NCBI GenBank assembly: GCA_020348925.1
Contig: CP070758.1
Coordinates: forward strand, 1,449,793-1,506,352
Length of the DNA stretch: 56,560 bases
Reading direction: 5' to 3'
From: Gemmatimonadota bacterium
GTDB taxonomy: Bacteria > JBHIER01 > G020348925
The notes below the pieces were generated by a model that made no database searches, was not told where the DNA came from, and worked only from the letters and a program-made list of their open reading frames with translations. The first letter of the stretch is position 1; every line of letters begins with the position of its first letter. Positions 10,796 through 25,306 of the stretch are shown here, one piece after another. The translations under genes and the position numbers were made by a program.

Positions 10796-10824
10796 TTGAC
10801 AAAACCGTCAAAAAATCATATAAT
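10796..10824 (+). promoter_or_regulatory. Consensus sigma70 promoter for the DUF47-PiT operon
   Basis: TTGACA (10796-10801) and TATAAT (10819-10824), both perfect, separated by exactly 17 nt. The leader is about 120 nt. No clear 11-bp Pho array overlaps it, so this operon may be constitutive, unlike the Pst units. Confidence 0.85.
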
Positions 10825-10954: not shown

Positions 10955-11632
10955 ATGCGAGGCATTTTAGCCGGGCTCTTTGCCAAATCGCCCTTCGGGC
11001 CGTTGAGCGAACACATGAATGCCGTAAAAAAATGTGTCAATCTGCTCAAGCCGATGTTCGAAGCGCTCATTGAACAGGATCATGAACGCGTCGAGGATAT
11101 TGCCAATCAGATATCAAAGCAAGAACACGAAGCGGACATCATCAAAAATGAAATTCGCAATCATCTTCCAAAAAGCATATTCTTGCCGGTTTCCCGGACC
11201 GATATTCTCAATTTTTTAAGGGAACAGGATGCTATTGCTGACGATGCGGAGGACGTTGGTGTTCTCCTGACCGTACGAAAGACCAATTTACCTGCTGAAC
11301 TCAAGGATGAACTCTTTGCTTTTCTCGACAAGGTGTTGGAGACTTTTGAGCTCACCGTCAGGGTGAATAGCGAGCTGAAACTTTTGATGGAAAGCTCCTT
11401 CGGGACAGCTGAAGTAGAAAAAGTACTTAAGTTGGTGGACGAGATCGGGCATGCGGAATGGGAAACCGACAGCCACCAATTCCGGTTGGCGCAGAAGATG
11501 TTCGAGATGGAGCAGAAATTAAGCCCCGGAGACATCATCATTCTGTTAAACGTCTTCCGACAGGTGGCCAGACTGGCCGATCACGCTCAAAACGTAGGAG
11601 ACCTTCTCAGGCTCATGATCTCGAAAGGATAA
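10955..11632 (+). CDS. DUF47 (PhoU-like) regulator of PiT transport
   Basis: A 225-residue all-helical protein of the DUF47/TIGR00153 family, distant kin of PhoU. Helices with EQDHERVEDIANQISKQEHEAD near residue 40 and a second half ending RLADHAQNVGDLLRLMI match the two-bundle fold that binds metal clusters. A good GAGG site precedes the ATG. It lies 39 bp upstream of the PiT gene, the usual pairing, and is thought to modulate that transporter in the cytoplasm. The pairing supports the assignment more than any single motif. Confidence 0.88.
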   Translation: MRGILAGLFAKSPFGPLSEHMNAVKKCVNLLKPMFEALIEQDHERVEDIANQISKQEHEADIIKNEIRNHLPKSIFLPVSRTDILNFLREQDAIADDAEDVGVLLTVRKTNLPAELKDELFAFLDKVLETFELTVRVNSELKLLMESSFGTAEVEKVLKLVDEIGHAEWETDSHQFRLAQKMFEMEQKLSPGDIIILLNVFRQVARLADHAQNVGDLLRLMISKG

Positions 11633-11671: not shown

Positions 11672-12910
11672 ATGGGCCCTGAACTGATTATTATAGTTGC
11701 TGCGGTTGTTGTTGGACTGTACATGGCCTGGAGCATCGGTGCAAACGATGTGGCCAATTCCATGGGAACCTCGGTCGCCTCAGGAGCTCTCACCATGAAG
11801 CAGGCCATCATCCTTGCCGGAGTATGTAATTTCATCGGGGCTGTCTTCGTCGGAACTCATGTGACCAATACAGTCCGAAAAGGTGTTCTCGACATTTCCA
11901 ATTTTGCTCACGATCCCACCACCCTTGTCTATGGCATGCTCGCAGTGTTGTTGGGAGCGAGTATTTGGGTGACACTGGCAACGTATAAAAAACTCCCTGT
12001 CTCTACAACCCATTCAATTATTGGTGCTGTTATCGGTTTTGGAATTGTCGAGATCGGTTTCTATGGAATACGGTGGCATATCGTTGGAGCCATCGTCCTG
12101 AGTTGGCTTATCTCTCCTTTGGGAGGAGCTCTGATTTCATTCACAGTCTTCAAGATTATCAGAAAGACAATTTTTAATGCCACATGTCCTGTTGCAGCCG
12201 TGAAAAAGATCGGACCTCTTTTTATCGGCCTCGTTTTCACCATTTTATGTTTGGCCATCATCTTCAAAGGCCTCAAACATTTGCATCTGGATTTACCATT
12301 GCCAAAAGCATTGCTCATATCCCTTGGAGTGGGACTTATGTTCGGCCTCTTGGGGTTTTTATTCCTTCGAAACCATCCTGTGAGAAAAGGTGAGGAATAC
12401 GAACAAGTCGAGGGTCTGGCAAATCCATTACAGATTCTGAGTGCAGCTTACGAAGCCTTTGCACACGGGGCGAACGACGTTGCCAACGCCATCGGTCCGG
12501 TGGCAGCCATCTATGCCATTCTTCAGACGCATCAAGTGGATATGCAGGTCTCAGTTCCTACCTGGATATTGGCCATTGGTGGCCTCGGTATTGTTGCGGG
12601 CATTTCCACCTGGGGATACCGTGTCATGGAAACCGTTGGTAAAAAAATTACTGAGATCACTCCTACACGTGGATTTTCCGCAGAATTTGGGACAGCGACA
12701 ACGGTACTCATCTTCTCAAAATTGGGTATGCCCGTTTCGACCACCCACGCCTGTATCGGAAATGTGATTGGTGTTGGATGTGCCCGAGGACTTGCGGCTC
12801 TCAACTTCGCCGTCGTCGGGCGGATCATTCTCATGTGGATTGTATCACTTCCCGCAGCTGCAGTACTGACCATCGTTTTCTTCAAGCTTCTCGTTTTCAT
12901 TCTGGGATAA
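11672..12910 (+). CDS. pit: PiT-family inorganic phosphate transporter
   Basis: A low-affinity phosphate permease of the inner membrane driven by protons or sodium. The 412-residue protein has about ten hydrophobic segments in two inverted halves, each with the family signature: SIGANDVANSMGT near residue 22 and AHGANDVANAIGPV near 267. Paired VSTTHS and VSTTHACIG motifs follow. GGAG lies nine bases before the ATG. It forms an operon with the DUF47 gene behind a consensus promoter and sits directly upstream of phoB-phoR. Confidence 0.93.
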   Translation: MGPELIIIVAAVVVGLYMAWSIGANDVANSMGTSVASGALTMKQAIILAGVCNFIGAVFVGTHVTNTVRKGVLDISNFAHDPTTLVYGMLAVLLGASIWVTLATYKKLPVSTTHSIIGAVIGFGIVEIGFYGIRWHIVGAIVLSWLISPLGGALISFTVFKIIRKTIFNATCPVAAVKKIGPLFIGLVFTILCLAIIFKGLKHLHLDLPLPKALLISLGVGLMFGLLGFLFLRNHPVRKGEEYEQVEGLANPLQILSAAYEAFAHGANDVANAIGPVAAIYAILQTHQVDMQVSVPTWILAIGGLGIVAGISTWGYRVMETVGKKITEITPTRGFSAEFGTATTVLIFSKLGMPVSTTHACIGNVIGVGCARGLAALNFAVVGRIILMWIVSLPAAAVLTIVFFKLLVFILG

Positions 12911-13052: not shown

Positions 13053-13732
13053 ATGGATCAGGAAAGCATTCTCGTCGTAGATGACGAAAAAGATATACTC
13101 GACTTAGTGAGCTACAATCTCGAACAGGAGGGTTTCAGGATTTTAAAAGCAACCGATGGCCCCTCCGCCCTCAAAGCCGCTGAGAAAGAATTGCCCGACT
13201 TGATCGTTCTGGATCTCATGCTGCCGAAACTGTCCGGCATGGAAGTGTGTAAACTCCTCAAGAAGAAAAAAGAGACTTCTGAAATCCCAATAATCATGCT
13301 CACAGCCAAGACGGAGGAGATCGACCGAGTGCTTGGCTTTGAGTTGGGAGCCGACGATTACGTCACCAAGCCATTCAGTCCGCGGGAACTTGTGCTTCGA
13401 GTAAAGGCGGTCCTCAAAAGAATGAAGGAAAAGGAGGTCAAGGAACTCATAAAAATTGATGCCTTGACGATTGATATTCCCAAACACCAAGTTTGGGTTG
13501 ACAACGAACCCCTTACATTAACGCCAACGGAATTCGATCTCCTGCTCGAATTGGCAGAGCGAAGAGGTAAAGTCCTTACGAGGGATATTCTTTTGGATAC
13601 AGTTTGGGATACGATTATTCAAGTTTCAACAGGACGGTAGACACCCACATTCGAAGATTACGATCGAAATTGGGTAAGATGGGCCAATACATTGAAACAG
13701 TCCGTGGATTGGGATATCGTTTCAAAGAATAA
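13053..13732 (+). pseudogene. phoB: PhoB-like response regulator, interrupted by a one-base frameshift
   Basis: The first 195 residues read as an OmpR/PhoB regulator: acidic pocket VVDDEKD, phosphoacceptor D54 in VLDLMLP, TKPF lysine, then the start of the winged helix ([30 protein letters not shown]). At 13606-13608 the run GGG is one G short. The frame then ends at 13638-13640, while the -1 frame continues the winged helix perfectly: [17 protein letters not shown], then RLRSKLG, then [10 protein letters not shown] to the stop at 13730-13732. Repaired, it would be 226 residues, normal for PhoB. No X-XXY-YYZ slippery site is in the right phase. Because the rest of the gene and phoR are intact, a sequencing or assembly indel is the simplest cause, but a real mutation or recoding cannot be excluded. 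Confidence 0.85.
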
Positions 13733-13748: not shown

Positions 13749-15521
13749 ATGACATTCAATGTACGCTGGAAATTGATGATCACCTACATCATCATTATTC
13801 TCGTTATTCTCCTCGCCATCACGATCTATCTCAATCGGACATTGAAATCGCATTATCTGGATCTAACAAGGGATCGGCTTCGACATGAGGCCAATCTGGC
13901 CAGGGCTTACATTCTGAATGAAACAATCGATCTCCCTTTTTCTCATCAGATTGACACACTGGCAAACGAAATAGGCGAACAATTAGGGCTTCGAGTGACA
14001 ATTGTTGATCCACAGGGGATCGTTCGGGGAGATTCCGAGCTTGATGGGCAAGCGCTCATAAACACAGAAAATCATGCCAATCGCCATGAGATCATGGATG
14101 CACACCAAAAAGAAATCGGTATAAACACAAGATACAGTTATACACTCAACACCGATATGATGTATCTTGCCATTCCGCTCGTTCGCCAAGATAAAAATAT
14201 TGGTACTGTACGACTGGCTCTCCCTCTGGATGAGATCAATCAAACGTTACGTCGAGTTCGAAGAATGCTCGCTGTTGCTTTCATTGTCGGGCTCATTCTG
14301 GCACTTTTCTTAAGCTACGTTACGGCCCGCGCTGTGACGAGACCTTTCAACGACATGTCGCAAATCGCCGAGAGAATGGCACGGGGAGATTTTTCAAGAA
14401 AAACAATTGTGAGATCCGGCGACGAAGTGGGCCAGCTCGCCACGACCCTCAATCAGATGGCTCTCCAATTGGACCGGACTATTCGGGAGATCACGACAGA
14501 GAGGGATCGTTTGCGCGGTGTGTTGAGCGGCATGCGGGAAGGAGTCATACTCACCGATAAAGAGGGGCGGATCGTTTTAACCAATGATGCGCTTTTAAAT
14601 TTTTTCAACGTGACATCATCCATCGAAGGCCGAACCGCGATCGAAACGATTCGAGACGCGAAACTTCACGCGACCATTGAAAAGGCACTCAAAACCAAAC
14701 AGGAAGTCATCGAGCAAATCGAGCTCACGGTCCCAAAAGAACGCACTCTCTACGTCCATGTTTTTCCATTGGGCGTTCCTGCCGGCTGCACTGGCACTGT
14801 TGTCGTGCTCTATGATGTTACTCAGCTGAAACGGTTGGAAAAAGTTCGAAAGGACTTCGTGGCCAATGTCTCCCACGAGCTGAACACTCCTTTGGCTGTT
14901 ATAAAGGGGTACACGGAGACCCTCCTCGACAAGGCGCTGGATGATACGGAGACGGCCAACAAGTTTTTAAAGATCATCTCTAAACATGTGAATCGGATGT
15001 CGAAACTGGTGGCCGATCTCTTAGCCCTTTCAAAATTTGAGTCGGACACCTATACACCTCTCTTTGGCTCTCAAGATTTACAAAAGATAGTGGCAAGTTC
15101 CACTGACACATTCAAAGACGCCCTCGAAAAAAAGAATGTAACGTGTACTGTCGACCTCCCTTCCGATCTCCCCCTTGTCAAGGGCGATGACAAAGGATTA
15201 GAGCAGGTCCTGCTCAATCTTCTCGACAACGCCGTGAAATTTACACCCGCAGGAGGCTCAATCACCGTTAGGGCACACGAGCAAGAAAGCGCTGTCAAAG
15301 TATATGTGTCAGATACTGGGATCGGTATTCCTATGAAAGATATACCACGAATCTTCGAACGATTCTATCGAGTGGATAAGGACCGATCCCGGGAACTCGG
15401 AGGGACAGGACTCGGGCTCTCCATTATCAAGCAAATTGTTCGGGCTCACGGTGGACAGGTGTGGGTTGAGAGCCAGGTGGGCCAAGGAACCACTTTCTCT
15501 TTTACGCTTCCTAAAGCATAA
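13749..15521 (+). CDS. phoR: PhoR-like phosphate-sensing histidine kinase
   Basis: Membrane sensor kinase that should phosphorylate PhoB when phosphate is low. The start at 13749 is preferred to an in-frame ATG at 13692 that lies inside the phoB C-terminal region. Order in 590 residues: transmembrane helix (about 12-32), extracytoplasmic domain, second helix (about 170-195), HAMP (about 195-250), PAS (about 260-360), HisKA with H376 in VSHELNTPLAVIKGY, and HATPase with DNAVKFTPAGG, DTGIGIP, ERFYR and GGTGLGLSI. It is spaced 16 bp from phoB. The periplasmic domain, PAS and position match PhoR of Gram-positive and deltaproteobacterial type. Confidence 0.9.
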   Translation: MTFNVRWKLMITYIIIILVILLAITIYLNRTLKSHYLDLTRDRLRHEANLARAYILNETIDLPFSHQIDTLANEIGEQLGLRVTIVDPQGIVRGDSELDGQALINTENHANRHEIMDAHQKEIGINTRYSYTLNTDMMYLAIPLVRQDKNIGTVRLALPLDEINQTLRRVRRMLAVAFIVGLILALFLSYVTARAVTRPFNDMSQIAERMARGDFSRKTIVRSGDEVGQLATTLNQMALQLDRTIREITTERDRLRGVLSGMREGVILTDKEGRIVLTNDALLNFFNVTSSIEGRTAIETIRDAKLHATIEKALKTKQEVIEQIELTVPKERTLYVHVFPLGVPAGCTGTVVVLYDVTQLKRLEKVRKDFVANVSHELNTPLAVIKGYTETLLDKALDDTETANKFLKIISKHVNRMSKLVADLLALSKFESDTYTPLFGSQDLQKIVASSTDTFKDALEKKNVTCTVDLPSDLPLVKGDDKGLEQVLLNLLDNAVKFTPAGGSITVRAHEQESAVKVYVSDTGIGIPMKDIPRIFERFYRVDKDRSRELGGTGLGLSIIKQIVRAHGGQVWVESQVGQGTTFSFTLPKA

Positions 15522-15620
15522 CCGATTTCTTTTCTTTTCCAAAAACTTCTGAGCACACGTCTTGAAAGGGAAAACTCTGTTCATATGTTTCTATGCCCCC
15601 CTGTTGACCTCATAATATGC

Positions 15621-15659
15621 TTGACACATCCTTGAAAGGTTCATAACTTAGAGTTGAGT
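15621..15659 (+). promoter_or_regulatory. Candidate PhoB box array upstream of the first porin
   Basis: Four hexamers spaced exactly 11 bp apart: TTGACA (15621), TTGAAA (15632), ATAACT (15643) and TTGAGT (15654). The 11-bp phase is that of PhoB/PhoP direct repeats. A plain TTGACA/TAACTT promoter reading (17-nt spacer) is also possible. Confidence 0.55.
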
Positions 15660-15747
15660 GATATCAATATGCAATTTCTTTGATTTTGAGAACATCCGAA
15701 CAGGATTTTCAATACACCCTGATTGTTGTCAAGGAGAGCAAATTAAA

Positions 15748-16914
15748 ATGACAAGACTGAACACTGTGATGTCTTTATCACTCATTTTCATTCTAACATC
15801 CGCATCTCTTACCCAAAGTGGAGATTCGCCAATCGGAATATTCGGATATTTCCAGAACTCATTTCAACACTGGACTACTTTCGAAGACAGAAAAGAACAA
15901 AATTCCTTCAGTGTACAACAGCTGAATCTTTTTTTTCAAAAAGATCTGAGTCGAGATTGGACCGCCTTTATTAATTTTGAATTTCTGAACAGCTTTTCAT
16001 CCATCAGGCAATGGGGTGCGGCCAATCTCGAAGAGGCGTGGGTAAAATACAGAGCGAATGAGAAATTTAATTTAAAACTTGGATTACAGATCCCCATATT
16101 CAACAATCTCAATGAAATCAAAAATCGTACTCCCTTGCTGCCTTATATTGTTCGGCCACTGGTGTATGAAACTTCATTTAGTGAGTTTATTATTATCGAG
16201 GAGTTTGTGCCAGACCGAGCCTTTTTGCAGGTTTATGGATTTCTGCCCAAGGGAGAGACCAAATGTGACTATGCGTTCTACTTAGGCAACAGTTCAAACA
16301 TGAATGATAATAGGGAAAAAGGACAAACCGGTATCGATACCACAACCACCTTTCTTGCCGGCGGACGTCTTGGTTTCCGCTACCGCGAATTAAAACTCGG
16401 TCTCTCGGCCACGCATGAGAAGAAAAATGGCATCAGAACTCTCGATTTCATAAGTCTCGCAGATTCTCTCGGAAGAGAGCCCTCGGAATTGATGGGATTA
16501 CCGAAAACGCGGCTGGGTGTGGATATGTCCTATAAATTTACCAATTTTATTTTTGAGAGTGAATTTGTAACCGTTAATATTGATGAAGGCATTCCCGAAT
16601 TGGAATTGGATCTCGACTTTTACTACGCAACATTAGGGTACCATTTGACCGAGCAGCTTTTTGCTTATGGAAGCTATTGGGTTGTTGATGTTCATAGTGC
16701 CCTGTTAGCCACTGGAGATGAAAAAGTTGAGGATGAAGCTATTCAAACATTAAATATTGGCGCTTCTTACGACTTGAATGACAGAATACGTTTCAAAGGA
16801 CAGTTCGCCCGGGTAAAAGCCGATGAAGAACTCCATCTCCTGTCTCACGATGATGTGATAAAGGAGGAAGATAAATTTAGTGTTTATGCAGTTGCAGTTT
16901 CCGTATTCTTCTAA
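15748..16914 (+). CDS. Outer-membrane porin-like protein
   Basis: The 388-residue protein starts at 15748 after AAGGAGA; residues 1-25 form a signal peptide. The rest alternates short amphipathic strands with turns rich in Asn, Asp and Gly and ends in a strand with terminal aromatic residues (YAVAVSVFF), as expected for a beta-barrel. Segments such as FSVQQLNLFFQKDLS and AWVKYRANEKFNLKLGLQIP resemble phosphate-selective porins, though less clearly than the 19402 protein. Together with the candidate Pho array upstream and the phosphate-binding-like gene downstream, this suggests a channel used in phosphate starvation. Substrate is inferred. Confidence 0.7.
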   Translation: MTRLNTVMSLSLIFILTSASLTQSGDSPIGIFGYFQNSFQHWTTFEDRKEQNSFSVQQLNLFFQKDLSRDWTAFINFEFLNSFSSIRQWGAANLEEAWVKYRANEKFNLKLGLQIPIFNNLNEIKNRTPLLPYIVRPLVYETSFSEFIIIEEFVPDRAFLQVYGFLPKGETKCDYAFYLGNSSNMNDNREKGQTGIDTTTTFLAGGRLGFRYRELKLGLSATHEKKNGIRTLDFISLADSLGREPSELMGLPKTRLGVDMSYKFTNFIFESEFVTVNIDEGIPELELDLDFYYATLGYHLTEQLFAYGSYWVVDVHSALLATGDEKVEDEAIQTLNIGASYDLNDRIRFKGQFARVKADEELHLLSHDDVIKEEDKFSVYAVAVSVFF

Positions 16915-16950
16915 ACCTTGGATTCTTATTCTCGAACAAGAAAAAGAAAT

Positions 16951-17379
16951 ATGAAATCGGTGATTGTTGCACTCTTCTGTTTTCTTGTAAATGCGACGAT
17001 TGTATTATCGCAAGTTGCCGTCATTTCTCATAAATCGGTTCCTGAAGATTCAATGACAAAATCGGTGCTGCTGGATCTCTACACAGGAGATATTCAATCG
17101 TGGAGCAACGGTGAACCTGTTATTGTCATAGATTTGAAACCGAGAGGTGACGTCAAAACAGCATTCTATGATTTCATCGGTAAGAAATCGTCCCGCATCA
17201 AATCAATATGGTTGAAAAAAAAGCTCTCAGGTGAATGGGACACCCCTGAATCACTTGAAACAGAGGATGACGTTGTAAAAAAGGTTGCCTCAACGGCCGG
17301 TGCCATAGGATTCGTCAGTCAATCAAGCGTGACGACTGACGTGAAAGTACTTTTACTCATACAACAGGGAAAGAATTAG
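16951..17379 (+). CDS. Short phosphate-binding (PstS-like) periplasmic protein
   Basis: 142 residues from the ATG at 16951, which opens a signal peptide (MKSVIVALFCFLVNATIVLS). The body resembles one lobe of PBP-like phosphate-binding proteins: VPEDSMTKSVLLDLYTGDIQSW corresponds to the PstS segment with the 'iy.G....W' pattern, and STAGAIGFVSQ to the late 'GaIGYv' motif. It lacks most of the other lobe, so it is about half a normal PstS. Such stand-alone short PBP proteins often lie beside porins and sensor kinases. It lies 36 bp after the porin. A sensory role with the following kinase is possible. Confidence 0.7.
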   Translation: MKSVIVALFCFLVNATIVLSQVAVISHKSVPEDSMTKSVLLDLYTGDIQSWSNGEPVIVIDLKPRGDVKTAFYDFIGKKSSRIKSIWLKKKLSGEWDTPESLETEDDVVKKVASTAGAIGFVSQSSVTTDVKVLLLIQQGKN

Positions 17380-17456
17380 ACTATGGCAGCGAACCATCTT
17401 CTTTTGCATTTCACTGTTCATAACACGTATACAAAGGACTCTTTGAATCAGACATC

Positions 17457-19097
17457 ATGAGTCTCAAAGATCTACGATTAAGTGTAAAACAGAAGATTGG
17501 GTTTGGTCTCATTCTCCTGATCATGGCCGGTGTCAATATCTTCTCCATTCATAAGATGGCCATGCTAAAAGTCGAACTGGATGAAGTGAGCTTGAATTGG
17601 CTCCCAAGAGCCATAGCTCTTTCTGACATTAACCTCAACACATCCCGCCTGTTATTAATTCAGTCACAACACGCATTTCCTGCCGACGAAGCAGCCAAGC
17701 TTCACCAGGCAAACATCCAGATCAATCTGATAGACAATATCAATGAGAACTTGGATACCTATGAAGAGTTGAAAACGGACTCCGAAAAACGAGGTCTGTA
17801 TTCAGAAGAAGAGGGGAAACTTTTCGCAGAATTCGACTGGAAATGGGAGGAGTATCAGGATTTGAGTCGTGATTTCCTGGATCTCGTTAACGCAAATAAG
17901 TCACCAGAAGCAAATGCGTTATTGAATGGAGAGGGTCGTGAGGTTTTCCGTTCCCTCAGTACCCGACTGGAAGAATTGGTCACGATCAATAAAAACGATG
18001 CTCTTCAAGCTGCGGGGCGAGCTGAAATCATGTTCAGAGCTACCCGAAATGTGACTGTTGTCCTGCTCATCGCGACGATGATCCTCTCCGGAGTTGTCGG
18101 AACTCTTTTCGTCAGGTATATAACGATACCTGTCAGGCAACTGGAAAAAGCAGCCAGGACCATAACGGATGGTGATCTCAGTGTCCAACTCGAAGTCCCG
18201 AGCAAGGATGAAATCGGCAATCTTGCGAATTCATTTAATCAGATGACGGTATCTCTTCGGGAAGCAAGACAAAGACTTGAACATCAGGCTGAAAATCTGA
18301 GGACAAAAAATCGAGAGCTCGAAAATGCGTTACACGAATTACAGACAACGCAGGATCAACTCATGATGAAGGAGAAGATGGCTGCCCTGGGTGATCTGGT
18401 TGCAGGGATCGTTCATGAGATCAATAATCCCATCGGGGCCGTAAACAGTTCTGCCGATGTTTCCAGACGATGTGTGAATAGAATTGAGGTTATGGTAGAA
18501 GAGGGGAAAACACCTCATGACGTCAAGCAAAATCCAGAGTATCAGAAAGCTTTAAATATCCTTAAAGAGAATATTCGAATTACACATGCAGCAAGTGATC
18601 GCATTGCCACTATAGCCAAAAGCTTGAAAATTTTTTCCACACTCGACGAGTCAGAGTATCAGAAAACGAATATCAACGAAGGTATTGAAAGTATCCTCAC
18701 ATTAATGGAGAACGAAATGCGCGGTCGGATATCCGTCATTAAAGACTACGGCGACATTCCAAAGATTGAGTGCTATCCAGGTCTTTTGAATCAGGTGTTC
18801 ATGAACGTGCTGAAAAATGCTTCTCAGGCCATTGAGAACTCTGGTACAATATATATCAAGACCTTCAAGGAAAACAAAAACGTTCATGTCAAGATTTCCG
18901 ATACGGGAAAAGGAATTCAGGCTCATGAAATAGAAAAAATATTTGATTTTGGATTCTCAGCGGTCGGTACGCGGGTCAAGATGGGATCCGGACTGGCAAC
19001 CGCATACAACATTATTCAGAAACACGATGGTGATATCAGTGTGGAAAGTGAAGTCGGCAAAGGTACAACTTTTAATATTTCCCTGCCCGCGACATAA
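17457..19097 (+). CDS. Transmembrane histidine kinase with four-helix sensor and HAMP domain
   Basis: 546 residues. The first helix (about 13-31) and the second (about 196-218) enclose a helical periplasmic domain like the four-helix bundle of chemoreceptors. HAMP (about 220-272, RYITIPVRQLEKAARTI) and a coiled coil follow. HisKA holds H320 in GIVHEINNPIGAV, of the NtrB-like HEINNP class, and the ATPase domain has NVLKNASQAI, DTGKGI and GSGLATAY. No response regulator is adjacent. It is the third gene after the Pho-like array, following the porin and the half-PstS, so it may sense phosphate status through that protein. This is an inference. Confidence 0.85.
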   Translation: MSLKDLRLSVKQKIGFGLILLIMAGVNIFSIHKMAMLKVELDEVSLNWLPRAIALSDINLNTSRLLLIQSQHAFPADEAAKLHQANIQINLIDNINENLDTYEELKTDSEKRGLYSEEEGKLFAEFDWKWEEYQDLSRDFLDLVNANKSPEANALLNGEGREVFRSLSTRLEELVTINKNDALQAAGRAEIMFRATRNVTVVLLIATMILSGVVGTLFVRYITIPVRQLEKAARTITDGDLSVQLEVPSKDEIGNLANSFNQMTVSLREARQRLEHQAENLRTKNRELENALHELQTTQDQLMMKEKMAALGDLVAGIVHEINNPIGAVNSSADVSRRCVNRIEVMVEEGKTPHDVKQNPEYQKALNILKENIRITHAASDRIATIAKSLKIFSTLDESEYQKTNINEGIESILTLMENEMRGRISVIKDYGDIPKIECYPGLLNQVFMNVLKNASQAIENSGTIYIKTFKENKNVHVKISDTGKGIQAHEIEKIFDFGFSAVGTRVKMGSGLATAYNIIQKHDGDISVESEVGKGTTFNISLPAT

Positions 19098-19189
19098 TTT
19101 ATCGCAAGATCATTTAAGCTTTCCCGGCAGCCATTTTCCAATAGATTCGTAGATTCATCAAAAGAGATATCTCTTTCACCTCTCTCTTT

Positions 19190-19228
19190 TTTAACGTAAT
19201 TGTAACGAGTCTGTAGCAGTTCTGTAAC
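19190..19228 (+). promoter_or_regulatory. Strong candidate PhoB box array upstream of the OprP-pst operon
   Basis: Four near-identical hexamers at exact 11-bp steps: TTTAAC (19190), TGTAAC (19201), TGTAGC (19212) and TGTAAC (19223). A -10-like TATGAT (19249-19254) follows about 21 nt past the array with no good -35, as expected for an activator that replaces the -35 contact. Confidence 0.72.
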
Positions 19229-19248
19229 ATAGTTCTTTTAACTTTGAA

Positions 19249-19254
19249 TATGAT
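19249..19254 (+). promoter_or_regulatory. -10 element of the OprP-pst promoter
   Basis: TATGAT, five of six matches to consensus, downstream of the Pho array. The leader to the ATG at 19402 would be about 140 nt. Confidence 0.5.
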
Positions 19255-19328
19255 TTAGGAGAAATTGGTTATTATAACATGCAAAATCACTACTGGTGAC
19301 ACGGGAAGGGGGTGATAACCGATACAGA

Positions 19329-19346
19329 ACTTGATATGAATCAAGT
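19329..19346. promoter_or_regulatory. Dyad in the OprP leader
   Basis: A perfect seven-base inverted repeat, ACTTGAT-atga-ATCAAGT, lies in the untranslated leader before the ribosome-binding site. It could be an operator or an RNA hairpin; there is no T-run. The rest of 19098-19401 apart from the Pho array holds nothing I recognise. Confidence 0.4.
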
Positions 19347-19401
19347 CGAAGCTGTAAAAATGTGGTCAATAAGAAAAAGTAGATTGTAAAAGGAGGAAAG
19401 A

Positions 19402-20412
19402 ATGAGCTTACGTCTCGCGGGTGCAGTTCTACTTGTATTCTCTTTGATATTCCGCAGCGTTTCTTTTGCAGGAACTTCGCAGATCAAAGGACATATGTTT
19501 GGCGATTACCTTTATAACGTCGCCAATCATGACAAGAGAGAAGAAAACTTTAACGAATTTCAATTCAGGCGAATATACTTTACTTTCGAAAACCAGCTGC
19601 ACGACAATATGAAGGTTAGGCTCCGGCTGGAGTCAGAAACGGAGAAGACGAACAGCAGCGGGCTCATCAGTCCCTATGTCAAGGATGCCTACTTGGAATG
19701 GTCGAATCTTTTCAGAGGGCATAAAGTGGTCTTCGGCCTTTCAAGCCCCCCAACGTGGGAGCTTTCCGAGGCGATTTGGGGTTACCGGTCAATAGAGAAG
19801 ACCATTATGGACTTCCGAAAGATCCGGTCATCCCGGGAGATGGGCCTTGGCTTAAAAGGAGCCTTTGACCTCAATAGTAAGTATAACCATCATTTCATGA
19901 TAGGTAACGGAAAGGGATACAAAGGTCCAGATGATGACAAGTACAAGCTGTTCATGTACAGCTTTTGGGTAGTACCTGTTGACGGTCTAACCCTCCAGGC
20001 GTATGTTGATTATCAGCGTAAGGAAATGAGTCCGAAAGTGAACGACATTGTGTACAAAGGTTTCTGTGCCTATGAAACCCCTCAGTTCTCAGTGGGTGTT
20101 GAGGGTTTCCAGCAGTCCCTGAAGAATGATGTTGTCGATTCGAAAAATGTTGGCATTTCTCTTTTCGCGTCTGCAATTCCGATACTTGGTTCCAAATTTA
20201 AGGTCTTTGGGCGGTTCGACTACTGGGATCCTGATACGGAGAGTGACGATGATGAGGAAAATCTCATCATCGGCGGATGGGACTTTATCCCTATCAATGA
20301 TGTTCACGTCATGCCGAATATTGTGGCCCGCACCTATGCCGAAGAAGACAAAAACAGTGACATCACTGCGCGTATCACGGTCTCATACAAATGGAGCAGC
20401 GGTCAATTCTAA
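19402..20412 (+). CDS. OprP/OprO-like phosphate-selective porin
   Basis: 336 residues with signal peptide (about 1-25) after a strong AAAGGAGG site. The barrel pattern is clear: FQFRRIYFTFENQLHDNMKV near residue 55 is typical of phosphate-selective porins (family 'porin O and P'), as are AYLEWSNLF and an RKIRSSREMGLGLKGAF segment. The chain ends with a strand and terminal aromatic (SYKWSSGQF). It sits first in the pst operon, 39 bp before pstS, under the best Pho array, so passage of phosphate through the outer membrane is the likely job. Confidence 0.85.
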   Translation: MSLRLAGAVLLVFSLIFRSVSFAGTSQIKGHMFGDYLYNVANHDKREENFNEFQFRRIYFTFENQLHDNMKVRLRLESETEKTNSSGLISPYVKDAYLEWSNLFRGHKVVFGLSSPPTWELSEAIWGYRSIEKTIMDFRKIRSSREMGLGLKGAFDLNSKYNHHFMIGNGKGYKGPDDDKYKLFMYSFWVVPVDGLTLQAYVDYQRKEMSPKVNDIVYKGFCAYETPQFSVGVEGFQQSLKNDVVDSKNVGISLFASAIPILGSKFKVFGRFDYWDPDTESDDDEENLIIGGWDFIPINDVHVMPNIVARTYAEEDKNSDITARITVSYKWSSGQF

Positions 20413-20451
20413 GCATTTTACTACGTTCACATGTATGAAGGAGATTTTAGC

Positions 20452-21342
20452 ATGAAATGGAAAATAGTCTTCATTAGTCTGATTTTTGCTGGTTTTGCTG
20501 TCATGACATGTACGAAGGGGAGTCCTCCTGTTCAAGTGAAAGGATCGGACACTTTGGTCAATCTCGTCCAGGTTCTGGCAGAGCAGTACATGGACAAGAA
20601 TCCGGGTACCGCCATTGCTGTGACCGGTGGAGGGTCGGGTGTCGGTATTGCCGCTATCATCAACGGAACCGTCGATATCGCCAATCACTCCCGCCCATTG
20701 AAAGACAAAGAATTTAAAGAATTTGAGGAAAAAGGAATTATTCCTACCACTTTGGTCATCGGCATCGACGGTCTCTCGGTCATTGTCAACGAGAACAATC
20801 CGGTCGATTCTCTCTCTATGGAGGACATCGGCAAAATCTACCGCGGTGAACTTGATACGTGGAACCAGATCGGCGGCTCAGATGAGGATATTTCCACGTA
20901 CGGGCGTCAACCCAACTCCGGCACCTATGTCTTTTTTCAGGATCTCGTCCTAGGCAAAAAAGACTACTCGCCAAAGATGAAGCAGATGAACGGCAACGCC
21001 CAGATCATGGATGCTGTGAAGACTGATGCGAATAGCATCGGCTACGTCGGTGTGGGGTACGTGTACGATGAGAGGGACAATGTGCAGAAGGGCATCAAGG
21101 TGTTGAAGGTTTCTCTGAGCGATGGTCCTGCCTATGCGCCGACCAATGTGGATGATGTCAAGTCCGGCCGATACCCCATCGCCCGTCCGCTGTTTCAGAC
21201 CATCAACGGGAAGCCGAAGGGTGCGGTGAAAGATTTCGTGGCTTTTGAGTTAGGCCCGGAGGGGCAAAAAATCGTTGAGGAGCAGGGATTTTTCCCCATC
21301 GGAGGGGAGTATATAGAGGCAAATAAAAAAGCCGGCTTCTGA
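20452..21342 (+). CDS. pstS: Phosphate ABC transporter substrate-binding protein
   Basis: The 296-residue periplasmic receptor of the Pst system. The start at 20452 follows GAAGGAG; the longer in-frame ATG (20431) covers that site. The signal ends at MTC, so a lipoprotein anchor is likely. Phosphate-binding motifs are visible: KGSDTLVNLVQ near 30, GGGSGVGIAAIINGTVDIANHSR near 65, IDGLSVIVN, IYRGELDTWNQIGG, YGRQPNSGTYVFF and SIGYVGVGYV. Phosphate delivered here is imported by PstCAB. Confidence 0.93.
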   Translation: MKWKIVFISLIFAGFAVMTCTKGSPPVQVKGSDTLVNLVQVLAEQYMDKNPGTAIAVTGGGSGVGIAAIINGTVDIANHSRPLKDKEFKEFEEKGIIPTTLVIGIDGLSVIVNENNPVDSLSMEDIGKIYRGELDTWNQIGGSDEDISTYGRQPNSGTYVFFQDLVLGKKDYSPKMKQMNGNAQIMDAVKTDANSIGYVGVGYVYDERDNVQKGIKVLKVSLSDGPAYAPTNVDDVKSGRYPIARPLFQTINGKPKGAVKDFVAFELGPEGQKIVEEQGFFPIGGEYIEANKKAGF

Positions 21343-21451: not shown

Positions 21452-21862
21452 GTGAAGCGTATACTTTTTGTCTGTGTCGAAAACAGTTGTCGCAGTCAAA
21501 TGGCTGAAGGTTTTGCCCAGCATCATGGCAAAGGAAATATTCTCTCTTCCAGCGCAGGGACAGCACCCGCCAAGAGAATGGACGAATCGGTGATTCGGGT
21601 CATGAAGGAGAAGGGCATAGATATCAGTCGCCACACACCGAAAAAAATCGATGAGAACATGATCGCCCGCAGTGATGTCGTCGTCACCATGGGCTGCTGC
21701 TCTGCCGAAGAACTCTGCCCGGTTTCCTATCACGGCCGCAAAGTGGACTGGAATATCCCGGACCCAAAAGGTGGTTCAATAGAAACTTTTCGAAACGTTC
21801 GAGATATCATTGAAAAACAGGTCCTGGATCTCATACAGAGCTTGAAAACCGACACTGTTTAA
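21452..21862 (+). CDS. arsC: Arsenate reductase, thioredoxin-coupled (LMW phosphatase fold)
   Basis: 136 residues from a GTG start. It has the P-loop C8-VENSC13-RS and cysteines C82, C83 and C89 in TMGCCSAEELCP. The triad C8/C82/C89 is close to the C10/C82/C89 relay of staphylococcal ArsC, and D in WNIPDPKG is the general acid. It reduces arsenate to arsenite in the cytoplasm using thioredoxin. A tyrosine phosphatase is less likely because of the extra cysteine pair. Its location inside the pst operon is notable. The start is weakly supported, since only an AAAGAAA run precedes it. Confidence 0.85.
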   Translation: MKRILFVCVENSCRSQMAEGFAQHHGKGNILSSSAGTAPAKRMDESVIRVMKEKGIDISRHTPKKIDENMIARSDVVVTMGCCSAEELCPVSYHGRKVDWNIPDPKGGSIETFRNVRDIIEKQVLDLIQSLKTDTV

Positions 21863-21909: not shown

Positions 21910-22866
21910 ATGGAAAGCAGTAATCATATGGGAAAAGAATCCGAGCAACATCTCCCTGTATGGCGCATCTTTTTGAGAAGTTACCGCTTCCAGAAGATAT
22001 GGGAAAAAGTTTTAGTCATTTTTTTCTTTTTCAACGGATTCTTCGCCGTTTTTGTTCTCCTGGGTATTTTCTCGCTCCTCTTCTTCGAGGGCACGCCGGC
22101 CTTTAAAACGATTTCCCCGAAAGAATTTTTCTTCAGTTCCGTCTGGAATCCAACGTCACCGATTCAGGAAAAGTACGGTATTCTGTCCCTTGTTGTAAGC
22201 ACGATGTTGACAACGTTAGGTGCTCTGGTTATCGCCACACCCCTGGGCGTGGCCTGTGCCGCTTACCTTTCCGATGTGGCCAGCCACCGCGTCCGCGAGA
22301 TCGTAAAACCCGCGGTGGAGATTCTGGCCGGCATACCATCCGTCGTTGTCGGCTTCCTGGGTCTCGTCGTCGTCGCTCCGCTCCTGGCAAAACTCTTCAA
22401 CCTTCCCAACGGATTGAACGCCCTGAACGGATCGATTCTGTTGGCCGTTATGTCGCTGCCGACCATCATCAGCCTGTCCGAAGACGCACTCGTCGCAGTT
22501 CCCCAGGAGTATAAGAGCGCCTCTTTGGCCCTGGGAGCAAACCGGTGGCAGACGCTGCTCAGGGTGACCATCCCTTCCGCCCTATCCGGCATCATTGCCT
22601 CCATCATGCTGGGTATGGGCCGGGCCATCGGTGAGACCATGACGGTCCTCATGGCCTGCGGAAACAGCCAAGCCATGCCCCACAGTTTCCTCGACTCCGT
22701 CCGGACCATGACGGCCACCATCGCCATCGAATTGGGGGAAACGGCCTACGGCTCCCCCCACTATCACTCCCTCTTCATCATCGGCTTTGTCCTCTTTCTC
22801 ATGACCTTTCTGGTCAATCTCGTCTCCGATCTCATTCTGGCGAAATATCAGGAGGTGGCTCGATGA
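21910..22866 (+). CDS. pstC: Phosphate ABC transporter permease PstC
   Basis: 318 residues with six or more membrane segments. The first follows a soluble 30-residue N terminus. The permease loop near residue 190-235, with SLALGANRWQTLLRVTIPSA, is the EAA coupling motif, and MGMGRAIGETM follows. It forms the inner-membrane channel with PstA. The stop overlaps the ATG of a 13-codon open frame (ATGA), which itself overlaps the pstA start. The start is uncertain; an ATG at 21928 is the alternative. Confidence 0.92.
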   Translation: MESSNHMGKESEQHLPVWRIFLRSYRFQKIWEKVLVIFFFFNGFFAVFVLLGIFSLLFFEGTPAFKTISPKEFFFSSVWNPTSPIQEKYGILSLVVSTMLTTLGALVIATPLGVACAAYLSDVASHRVREIVKPAVEILAGIPSVVVGFLGLVVVAPLLAKLFNLPNGLNALNGSILLAVMSLPTIISLSEDALVAVPQEYKSASLALGANRWQTLLRVTIPSALSGIIASIMLGMGRAIGETMTVLMACGNSQAMPHSFLDSVRTMTATIAIELGETAYGSPHYHSLFIIGFVLFLMTFLVNLVSDLILAKYQEVAR

Positions 22867-22924
22867 CGTTTCCCAAAGTCAAAGATCAGGAGATGGTCCA
22901 ATGACGTTGCGCAAGATCAACGAG
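22849..22924 (+). repeat. 38-bp imperfect tandem duplication at the pstA start
   Basis: Two adjacent copies (22849-22886 and 22887-22924) share CAGGAG, the ATGACGTT start and scattered downstream bases. The offset between the two ATGs is exactly 38 bp. Confidence 0.55.
22863..22904 (+). CDS. 13-codon relay ORF between pstC and pstA
   Basis: ATG at 22863 overlaps the pstC stop, and its own TGA (22902-22904) overlaps the pstA ATG. The peptide would be MTFPKVKDQEMVQ. The stretch 22849-22886 repeats the next 38 bases (22887-22924) with changes and thus duplicates the GGAG site and the first codons of pstA. It may be a relic of duplication that now couples translation. Confidence 0.4.
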   Translation: MTFPKVKDQEMVQ

Positions 22925-23755
22925 GTGGCGGGCTTTACGGTATTGAGAATTGCGGCGGTTCTCGTCTTGGCCTCCTTAGCCTTCATACTCTTCGACGTCT
23001 TCACCAAAGGCTGGGGCGTCATCTCCTGGGAATTCTTAATCGATAAACCACGGCAGGGCATGACGGAAGGCGGGATCTTCCCTATTATTGTGGGAACCTT
23101 CTATGTCAGTCTGATAACCGTCATCTTCGCCGTACCCCTGGGTATGTTTGCTGCCATATATTTGAACGAGTATGCCAAGCAATCCAGGATAACCCGTCTC
23201 ATTCGATTGGCCATACGCAATCTTTCCGGCGTACCTTCGATAGTCTATGGACTCTTTGGCGTGGCTCTCTTTGTGAAGATGATTGCTTTCGGCACGTGTG
23301 TCCTGTCGGCGGGTCTCACCCTGGGTCTCCTCACTTTACCCTGGACCATAACGGCCAGTGAGGAAGCGCTAAAAACCGTACCCATGTCCTATCGTGAGGG
23401 CGCTCTGGCTTTAGGGGCCACGAAATGGCAGTCCATCAGAACGAACGTTTTACCCTATGCTGTTCCGGGTATGCTCACCGGCACGATCTTGGGCTTGGCC
23501 CGGGCAGCGGGCGAAACGGCTCCCATCCTCTTCACCGGGGCCGCCTTCTTCTGGCCGTTCCTTCCGAAATTGTTCAGTCAGTTCATGGCTCTCCCCTATC
23601 ACATCTTCATCATGTCGACACAGCATCACGAGATTATGAAGGTCAGGCCTCTGGCCTACGGAACGGCCCTCGTTTTAATCGCCATGGTGCTGTCATTGAA
23701 CGGATTCGCCGTCTGGATCCGGTACCGTTTCCGCAAGAAATACAGAAGAGTATAG
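22901..23755 (+). CDS. pstA: Phosphate ABC transporter permease PstA
   Basis: 284 residues with about six membrane segments. GTFYVSLITVIFAVPLGMFA near 65, the EAA loop (REGALALGATKWQSIRTNVLP near 165) and GLARAAGETAPILFTGAAFF are typical of PstA. It pairs with PstC. The next gene, pstB, follows after 53 bp. Confidence 0.93.
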   Translation: MTLRKINEVAGFTVLRIAAVLVLASLAFILFDVFTKGWGVISWEFLIDKPRQGMTEGGIFPIIVGTFYVSLITVIFAVPLGMFAAIYLNEYAKQSRITRLIRLAIRNLSGVPSIVYGLFGVALFVKMIAFGTCVLSAGLTLGLLTLPWTITASEEALKTVPMSYREGALALGATKWQSIRTNVLPYAVPGMLTGTILGLARAAGETAPILFTGAAFFWPFLPKLFSQFMALPYHIFIMSTQHHEIMKVRPLAYGTALVLIAMVLSLNGFAVWIRYRFRKKYRRV

Positions 23756-23808
23756 CGTGCCAGGGGAAATGATGATGCACAATGTTAGGAGTAACAGAAG
23801 GAAATACA

Positions 23809-24567
23809 ATGTCTGAGATAAAAATGTCCATAAAGGAATTCAATTTCTACTACGGCAATGATCGGGCACTGAAGGACGTCACCATGGATATCCAGACTCA
23901 TCAGGTCACGGCCCTCATCGGACCCTCGGGCTGCGGCAAATCGACCCTCATCAGATCATTGAACCGGATGAACGATATCATTCCCGGGATCCGCGTGGAG
24001 GGCACCGTCACCCTTGACGGGCAGGACATCTACGCCAAAGGTATCGATGTTGTCGATCTGCGTCGGCGTGTGGGTATGGTTTTCCAGAAATCGAATCCCT
24101 TCCCCAAGTCGATATTTGATAATGTGGCCTACGGCCTGAGGATCAACGGTATGCGGGACAGAAATTTCATCACCCACCGCGTCGAGGAAAGCTTGAAAGG
24201 GGCTGCCCTGTGGGACGAAGTGAAGGATCGACTGAAGGACAACGCCATGGATCTGTCAGGTGGTCAGATGCAGCGCTTGTGCATTGCCCGGGCCTTGGCC
24301 GTCCAGCCGGAGATCATCCTCATGGATGAGCCCGCTTCAGCCCTCGATCCCCTGGCCACCCTAAAGATTGAAGAGCTCATCTTTGAACTGAAGAAGAATT
24401 ATACCATTGTCATTGTTACACACAACATGCAGCAGGCAGCACGAGTCTCCGACTTCACGGCATTCTTCTACCTCGGTGAGCTCATCGAATTCGACAAAAC
24501 CGACGTCATCTTCACACGGCCCAACAAGAAAAAGACGGAGGATTATATCACCGGGCGCTTCGGATAA
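23809..24567 (+). CDS. pstB: Phosphate ABC transporter ATP-binding protein
   Basis: 252 residues from the ATG at 23809, preferred over 23782 because of GAAGGA just upstream and the usual family length. Walker [11 protein letters not shown]-loop [11 protein letters not shown], signature [16 protein letters not shown], Walker [14 protein letters not shown] and the H-loop [13 protein letters not shown] are all intact. It energises phosphate uptake through PstCA. Confidence 0.95.
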
Positions 24568-24631: not shown

Positions 24632-25306
24632 ATGCCTGAAGCAAGACATTTTCATGAAGAACTGGCTGAATTGAAAAACAAACTGCTTGTCATGAGTTCG
24701 TTGGTTGAAGCGAGCATTCAGAAATCCATTCAGGCTCTCGAAGAGCGAAGCCCGACGTTGGCCCGTGAAGTATTTGACGATGACAAGGTGATCGATCAGA
24801 TGGAAATCGAGATCGATGAATGCGGCATTAGGCTCATGGCGCTGGATCAACCCGTGGCCGTCGACTTGCGTATGCTTTTCGGCGTCCTGAGGATCAATAA
24901 CGACCTGGAGCGCATCGGGGACCACAGCGTCAATATCGCCGAGCGGGCCCTTCGTTTGGCCGAGGCACCGTTCCTGAAACAACTCGTGGATATCCCCCGG
25001 ATGGCCGCCATCGTACAAAGTATGGTCAAAGACGTACTGGACGGATTCGTTCAGGAAGATCCCGAAAAAGCCCGAGCAACATGCAAACGCGATGACGAGG
25101 TCGATGAACTCGATGATCGGTTCATACGAGCTCTCCTGACCTACATGATGGAAAAGCCAAGTGTCATAACACAGGCGATGGATCTGATTATAATCAGTAA
25201 GAATCTCGAGCGCATTGGTGATCTGGCCACAAATATCGCAGAAGACGTCGTATTCATCTATCAGGCCAAGACCATTAAGCATCATATTGATAAAAAAGAG
25301 GATTAA
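24632..25306 (+). CDS. phoU: Phosphate signalling protein PhoU
   Basis: 224 residues, two three-helix bundles with the paired PhoU metal motifs: ERIGDHSVNIAERA near 92 and ERIGDLATNIAEDVVFI near 195. It links Pst flux to PhoR and limits phosphate overload. As last gene of the pst operon it has an AGGAG site eleven bases before the ATG. Confidence 0.95.
   Translation: MPEARHFHEELAELKNKLLVMSSLVEASIQKSIQALEERSPTLAREVFDDDKVIDQMEIEIDECGIRLMALDQPVAVDLRMLFGVLRINNDLERIGDHSVNIAERALRLAEAPFLKQLVDIPRMAAIVQSMVKDVLDGFVQEDPEKARATCKRDDEVDELDDRFIRALLTYMMEKPSVITQAMDLIIISKNLERIGDLATNIAEDVVFIYQAKTIKHHIDKKED

Follow-up and report, generated by a model that had tools for sequence, protein, structure and literature searches.

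Pho boxes are generally defined by direct repeats that recur every 11 nt (PMC4415409), and the tandem, head-to-tail binding of PhoB has been reported as their structural basis (PMC4832192, PMC3973317). In Escherichia coli, the repeated unit is CTGTCAT (PMC4415409, PMC3264566), and the -10 element is located 10 bp downstream of the repeats (a rule quoted in PMC1906773). The cyanobacterial SphR box has been described as CTTAACCT, with at least three tandem repeats (PMC1906773). Here we analyzed a stretch of 56,560 nucleotides (the window) from a Gemmatimonadota bacterium, positions 1449793-1506352 of a single-contig 5.04-Mb genome, for which an earlier note had pointed out two strings of four hexamers at exact 11-bp steps, in the following array 1 (15621-15659) and array 2 (19190-19228), and had proposed that they define a Pho regulon. 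Both strings are present as quoted. Our analysis makes it very likely that the four units of array 2 form a Pho box and that array 1 is a plain sigma-70 promoter rather than a Pho box.

Array 2, a predicted PhoB-type operator on the forward strand, as are the other features of the window described below, consists of TTTAAC, TGTAAC, TGTAGC, and TGTAAC at 19190, 19201, 19212, and 19223, in steps of 11 bp. With no consensus assumed, 22 of 24 letters agree over the four hexamers, an agreement reached at only four places, array 2 included, in a 1.26-Mb sample of this genome; a poly-A tract is among the other three. When this sample was scored with a matrix built from E. coli Pho boxes alone, a convenience matrix, array 2 ranked first among 2.51 million positions, and with a mixed matrix it scored 26.1 bits, as compared with 16.6 bits for the next unrelated site. 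Dinucleotide shuffling of the region 19098-19401 reached the score of array 2 in 1 of 5000 shuffles. Furthermore, array 2 is located upstream of, and on the same strand as, the operon for phosphate acquisition that runs from the second porin gene (porin 2) and pstS to phoU. The earlier note had also placed one of the arrays just before a -10 box, which agrees with our analysis: a predicted -10 element, TAACTT (19239-19244), is found exactly 10 bp past the last unit of array 2, and no -35 element is found at the 17-bp position before it, which reads GCAGTT. The leader of porin 2 would be approximately 150 nt long if this TAACTT is the -10 element. Array 2 is thus characterized by direct repeats at 11 nt, likeness to the consensus, the pst context, and the geometry of the -10 element, and a Pho box is its best interpretation because the repeats are rare, follow each other at 11-bp steps, lie upstream of pst, and are properly spaced from the -10 element. 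As far as can be judged from sequence, this architecture is the standard layout of a PhoB operator.

Two other promoter assignments were considered for this region. The -10-like TATGAT (19249-19254) is located 20 bp past the last unit, in poorer fit to the phase of the repeats, and was set aside since this distance is off the peaks at 10 and 21 bp found across genomes (see below). A promoter of the Bacteroidota type, TAnnTTTG, overlapping TAACTTTG at 19239, was dropped because its enrichment in the genome is little, as compared with a strong enrichment of TTGACA-17-TANNNT. In the mechanism that we propose, phosphorylated PhoB encoded by the adjacent phoB-phoR pair would bind the 11-bp direct repeats head-to-tail, would replace the missing -35 element, and would recruit the sigma-70 RNA polymerase to TAACTT. 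Low phosphate would thereby switch on porin-pstS-arsC-like-pstCAB-phoU, presumably seven genes on one transcript.

The layout of array 2 was compared with 69 regions upstream of pstS in about 50 genomes of other families, in which three-unit arrays with periods from 7 to 16 were scored by a combined [CT][GT]T[AC]A[CT] matrix. At period 11, 15 regions reached at least 13 bits, as compared with 0-2 regions at each of the periods 7-10 and 12-16 and with one region on the opposite strand at period 11. For 16 arrays, the motif TANNN[TA] was found past the last unit four times at 10 bp, another four times one step further on, at 21 bp, and never at 3-9 or 11 bp. The survey shows that the 11-bp layout and the distance to the -10 element hold in many unrelated families. 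The arrays in this survey come in TGTAAC, TGTCAC, and CTTAAC forms. For instance, TGTAAC units are found at L144 (G073) and TGTCAT/TGTAAT units at L179 (G011). From its letters, the unit form of array 2, T[GT]TAAC, can be placed between the TGTCA of E. coli and the CTTAAC of Bacillus and cyanobacteria, as the earlier note had stated of both arrays, but because TGTAAC units recur at the pstS gene of another genome (L144), this form is one of several and is not special. The three-unit TGTAAC/TTTTAC array at L144 has the same hexamer form and step as array 2, with a -10-like TATCAT at 10 bp; it differs in belonging to an unrelated genome and in being located directly before pstS, whereas array 2 precedes a porin gene. 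Another array of the survey, at L136 (G034), mixes CTTAAC, CTTAAC, and TGTCAT before pstS in a genome whose regulator has Ala at position 201, and it is possible that this array is an intermediate.

The form of the box appears to follow one residue of the recognition helix. Among the base contacts in the E. coli PhoB complex are a hydrogen bond from Arg201 to a guanine and contacts of Thr194 and Val197 with thymines (PMC3973317; also PMC3264566). For 18 genomes, both an array and the recognition helix of the best-matching PhoB were readable (helices at loci L187-L198 and L216-L222). All seven genomes whose unit has G in second place (the window, G043, G012, G073, G011, G023, and G082) encode Arg at residue 201, and all 11 genomes with T in this place encode W, H, N, K, S, or A there, so that residue and form agree in 18/18 genomes (Fisher, 3e-5, computed without phylogenetic correction). 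In this comparison PhoB was chosen as the best match to one query which itself carries Arg201, synteny was not required, and the forms were assigned by eye, the array of G082 being weak and that of G034 mixed. The link between residue 201 and the form of the box is an extension of the known contact to many lineages. The PhoB helix encoded in the window is of the Arg class and therefore predicts a G-form box, as observed. We lean slightly toward the general view that in every bacterium this single residue could reveal which form the Pho box takes, Arg201 predicting G (TGTMAY) and other residues predicting T (CTTAAC). If this is true, TGTAAC, a G form whose next variable position is A, would be a predictable state and not a taxon-specific motif, and regulators of uncultured lineages could be matched to their operators from sequence.

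A complication arises from the regulator itself. The phoB-phoR pair is located 4-6 kb upstream of array 2, and the phoB open reading frame (ORF; 13053-13640) is broken: it stops inside the winged-helix DNA-binding domain, in the turn that leads into the recognition helix (13592-13640), with Pfam Trans_reg_C covering only 41 of 77 positions (2-41 of the model). Because the ORF is shortened by the break, its score against TIGR02154, which is still the best model, is 224.2 bits and thus below the curated cutoff of 296.2. No other close PhoB was found in the genome, where the identity of the best remaining response regulators is only 30-38% and in nearly all of them is limited to the receiver domain, and a homolog search with PhoR in the named genomes retrieved only distant ones. 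One explanation, which we regard as unlikely, is that array 2 is a relict: phoB would have been lost lately by the frame break, the box would be unused, and the operon would be off, expressed constitutively, or controlled from elsewhere, for instance from the perfect FNR/CRP-type palindrome TTGATATGAATCAA (19331-19344) in the leader of porin 2; this palindrome, a perfect TTGATNNNNATCAA, occurs once in the window as compared with 0.11 expected, and three times in 1.3 Mb of the genome. It is possible that this palindrome is a second control site for porin2-pst. The break within the winged helix, the failure to find any further regulator close to PhoB in this genome, and the palindrome in the leader are all consistent with a relict. 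In contrast, the residues past the break, including the recognition helix with Arg at E. coli position 201, continue intact and fully conserved in another frame (13592-13732), so that the loss, if real, would have to be very recent; the box is without decay; and an assembly error of one base in this single-contig genome is equally likely. The break could possibly be a recent mutation or an assembly error, the latter because other genes in this assembly also have in-frame stops. In either case, the break leaves the nature of the sequence at 19190 unchanged and decides whether the box is in use.

Alternatively, array 2 could be the operator of another regulator of the OmpR/PhoB family, such as a partner of the orphan histidine kinase encoded immediately upstream of it (17457-19097). 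All regulators of this family bind direct repeats with a spacing of about one turn (PMC4832192), and the position of the kinase would fit. This is distinctly improbable, since the unit fits the consensus of PhoB itself best, the genes downstream are pstSCAB-phoU, and the similarity of the remaining response regulators to PhoB is, as mentioned above, nearly confined to the receiver domain.

It is very improbable that, as the earlier note had proposed, both arrays are Pho boxes and jointly mark a Pho regulon, with a box form found only in this organism. Both strings exist, and both are located before porin-family genes in the phosphate cluster; with regard to the claim that these porins belong to phosphate units, porin 2 heads the pst operon, and porin 1 lies between phoB-phoR and a short protein with a weak likeness to PstS. 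The claim that the arrays are non-random holds for array 2 and not for array 1. The hexamers of array 1 (TTGACA, TTGAAA, ATAACT, and TTGAGT at 15621, 15632, 15643, and 15654) agree at 18/24 letters, a level reached 1811 times in 1.26 Mb, or about once per 700 bp; with the E. coli-only matrix, its score is equaled or exceeded at 659 of 2.51 million positions; and dinucleotide shuffles of the region matched its score in 333 of 2000 cases. By these counts, matrix scores, and shuffles, the 11-nt repeat of array 1 is not beyond chance and has no likeness to the known Pho consensus. Array 1 is instead explained by a predicted sigma-70-type promoter of porin 1 (15621-15649), in which TTGACA (15621-15626) and TAACTT (15644-15649) are separated by 17 bp, so that the first "unit" is the -35 element and the third unit overlaps the -10 element. 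A count over the regions preceding 474 ORFs of the genome sample gave a peak of 28 cases in which TTGACA and TANNNT are separated by a 17-bp spacer, as compared with about 2 cases at unrelated spacers; therefore, this genome uses classical sigma-70 promoters. Array 1 was rejected as a Pho box on the basis of the chance-level counts and this promoter, and its repeat-like spacing appears to be a product of chance. Like a sigma-70 housekeeping promoter (TTGACA-17-TATAAT), it has a perfect -35 element, a 17-bp spacer, and a TANNNT -10 element, but its -10 element, TAACTT, matches the consensus at only three of six positions. It would express porin 1 without an activator. A predicted promoter with the perfect consensus TTGACA-17-TATAAT (10796-10824) is located, in contrast to array 2 without a Pho box, before the unit of the DUF47 and Pit genes.

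Genome-wide scans also speak against a regulon. When the whole genome was searched for TGTAAC-N5-TGTARC-N5-TGTAAC with up to three mismatches, only array 2 was found (in two registers), as compared with 7 matches of the reversed control. A looser G-form with two mismatches gave 9 matches in the whole genome versus 10 for reversed controls, array 2 being the best, and the CTTAAC form gave 1 match versus 21 in controls. The two-mismatch matches elsewhere are inside genes or, where checked, before genes for VWA and Ig-like proteins, and not at phosphate genes. No comparable array was found within 250 bp upstream of the other phosphate genes of the window. PhoD is absent from the genome. Three genes for PhoA-type phosphatases are found elsewhere in the genome, and the flanking stretches sampled around them contributed no strong array to the top matches of the genome-sample scan. 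One PhoA-type gene (G000:C1:3684655-3685668) has an in-frame TGA and is split into two ORFs, with an apparently intact paralog at 1255524. A second PstS/porin locus at 522-542 kb was also considered and rejected, because its proteins indicate a tungstate/molybdate type and not a phosphate type. This locus, L033 (G000:C1:522001-542000), combines a tungstate/molybdate-type binding protein, a regulator with a helix-turn-helix and a binding domain, and a Porin_O_P-type porin, and resembles the pst operon in pairing an outer-membrane porin with an importer for oxyanions. The enrichment near phosphate genes by which the earlier note wanted its regulon to be judged was not found, nor was any excess over the reversed patterns; the term regulon is unsupported, and a single operator, array 2, stands out.

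The weakest explanation, a chance run of similar hexamers in array 2, can draw on the four equally self-similar places in 1.26 Mb and the one shuffle in 5000 noted above, and is hardly credible because the other three places have no likeness to Pho units and array 2 is located upstream of pst with a -10 element at the canonical distance.

Several observations weigh against array 2 as a working Pho box. A single operator in the 5 Mb scanned is few for a functional PhoB; with phoB broken in its DNA-binding domain and no close second PhoB, this strain may lack the regulator; TAACTT is a weak match to TATAAT; and no closely related genome was at hand to show conservation of the site, since the closest of the genomes searched is related to the source genome only at the level of the same domain. 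In our view, the analysis nevertheless supplies, in array 2, a well-founded site for the control of phosphate uptake by a deep-branching bacterium and removes a false one, array 1.

The genes around the two arrays form a phosphate cluster. A DUF47/PhoU-like gene (starting at 10955) and a Pit gene (starting at 11672), which together form a low-affinity phosphate unit, precede phoB. The PhoR/PnpS-type sensor kinase (13749-15521, with ATG at 13749) scores above the cutoff of the PnpS model and is followed by porin 1 (15748-16914; Porin_4/Porin_O_P match). Between porin 1 and the orphan histidine kinase, which has a four-helix sensor, a short secreted protein of 142 amino acids (16951-17379) matches the PstS fold weakly and in its middle only, and this protein and the kinase might possibly be a sensing module. 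Porin 2 (19402-20412; weak Porin_O_P match) is the first gene of the putative operon, followed by PstS (20446-21342; TIGR02136 above the cutoff), a protein of the arsenate reductase-like/low-molecular-weight (LMW) phosphatase family (21452-21862), PstC (21910-22866), PstA (22901-23755), PstB (about 23806-24567, assigned from the ORF sequence and BLAST matches), and PhoU (24632-25306). In an unrelated genome (L096, 6661-7104), the pst cluster likewise has an arsenate reductase gene, of the thioredoxin type, next to phoB, and such genes may handle arsenate that enters through Pst. A search against Rfam gave no match within 15400-20500.

When compared with the described systems, array 2 can be related to the Pho box of E. 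coli. Both consist of 11-bp direct repeats with conserved TGT and A, have a -10 element 10 bp downstream and no -35 element, and are located before pst genes. The regulators are also alike, since the PhoB predicted from the window has Arg201, Thr194, and Arg219 at the base-contacting positions as E. coli PhoB does. The differences are that the fourth letter of the hexamer in array 2 is A and not C (TGTAAC versus TGTCAT/C), that array 2 has four units in a row, that PhoB of the window has Thr for Val at position 197, and that the operon additionally includes a porin gene and an arsC-like gene. In Bacillus, the PhoP box is of the TTAACA type. Array 2 shares with this box and with the cyanobacterial SphR box three or more units, the 11-bp steps, and a TAAC core; both of these boxes differ from array 2 in having T and not G at the second position, which, by the correlation with residue 201, goes with a different recognition helix.

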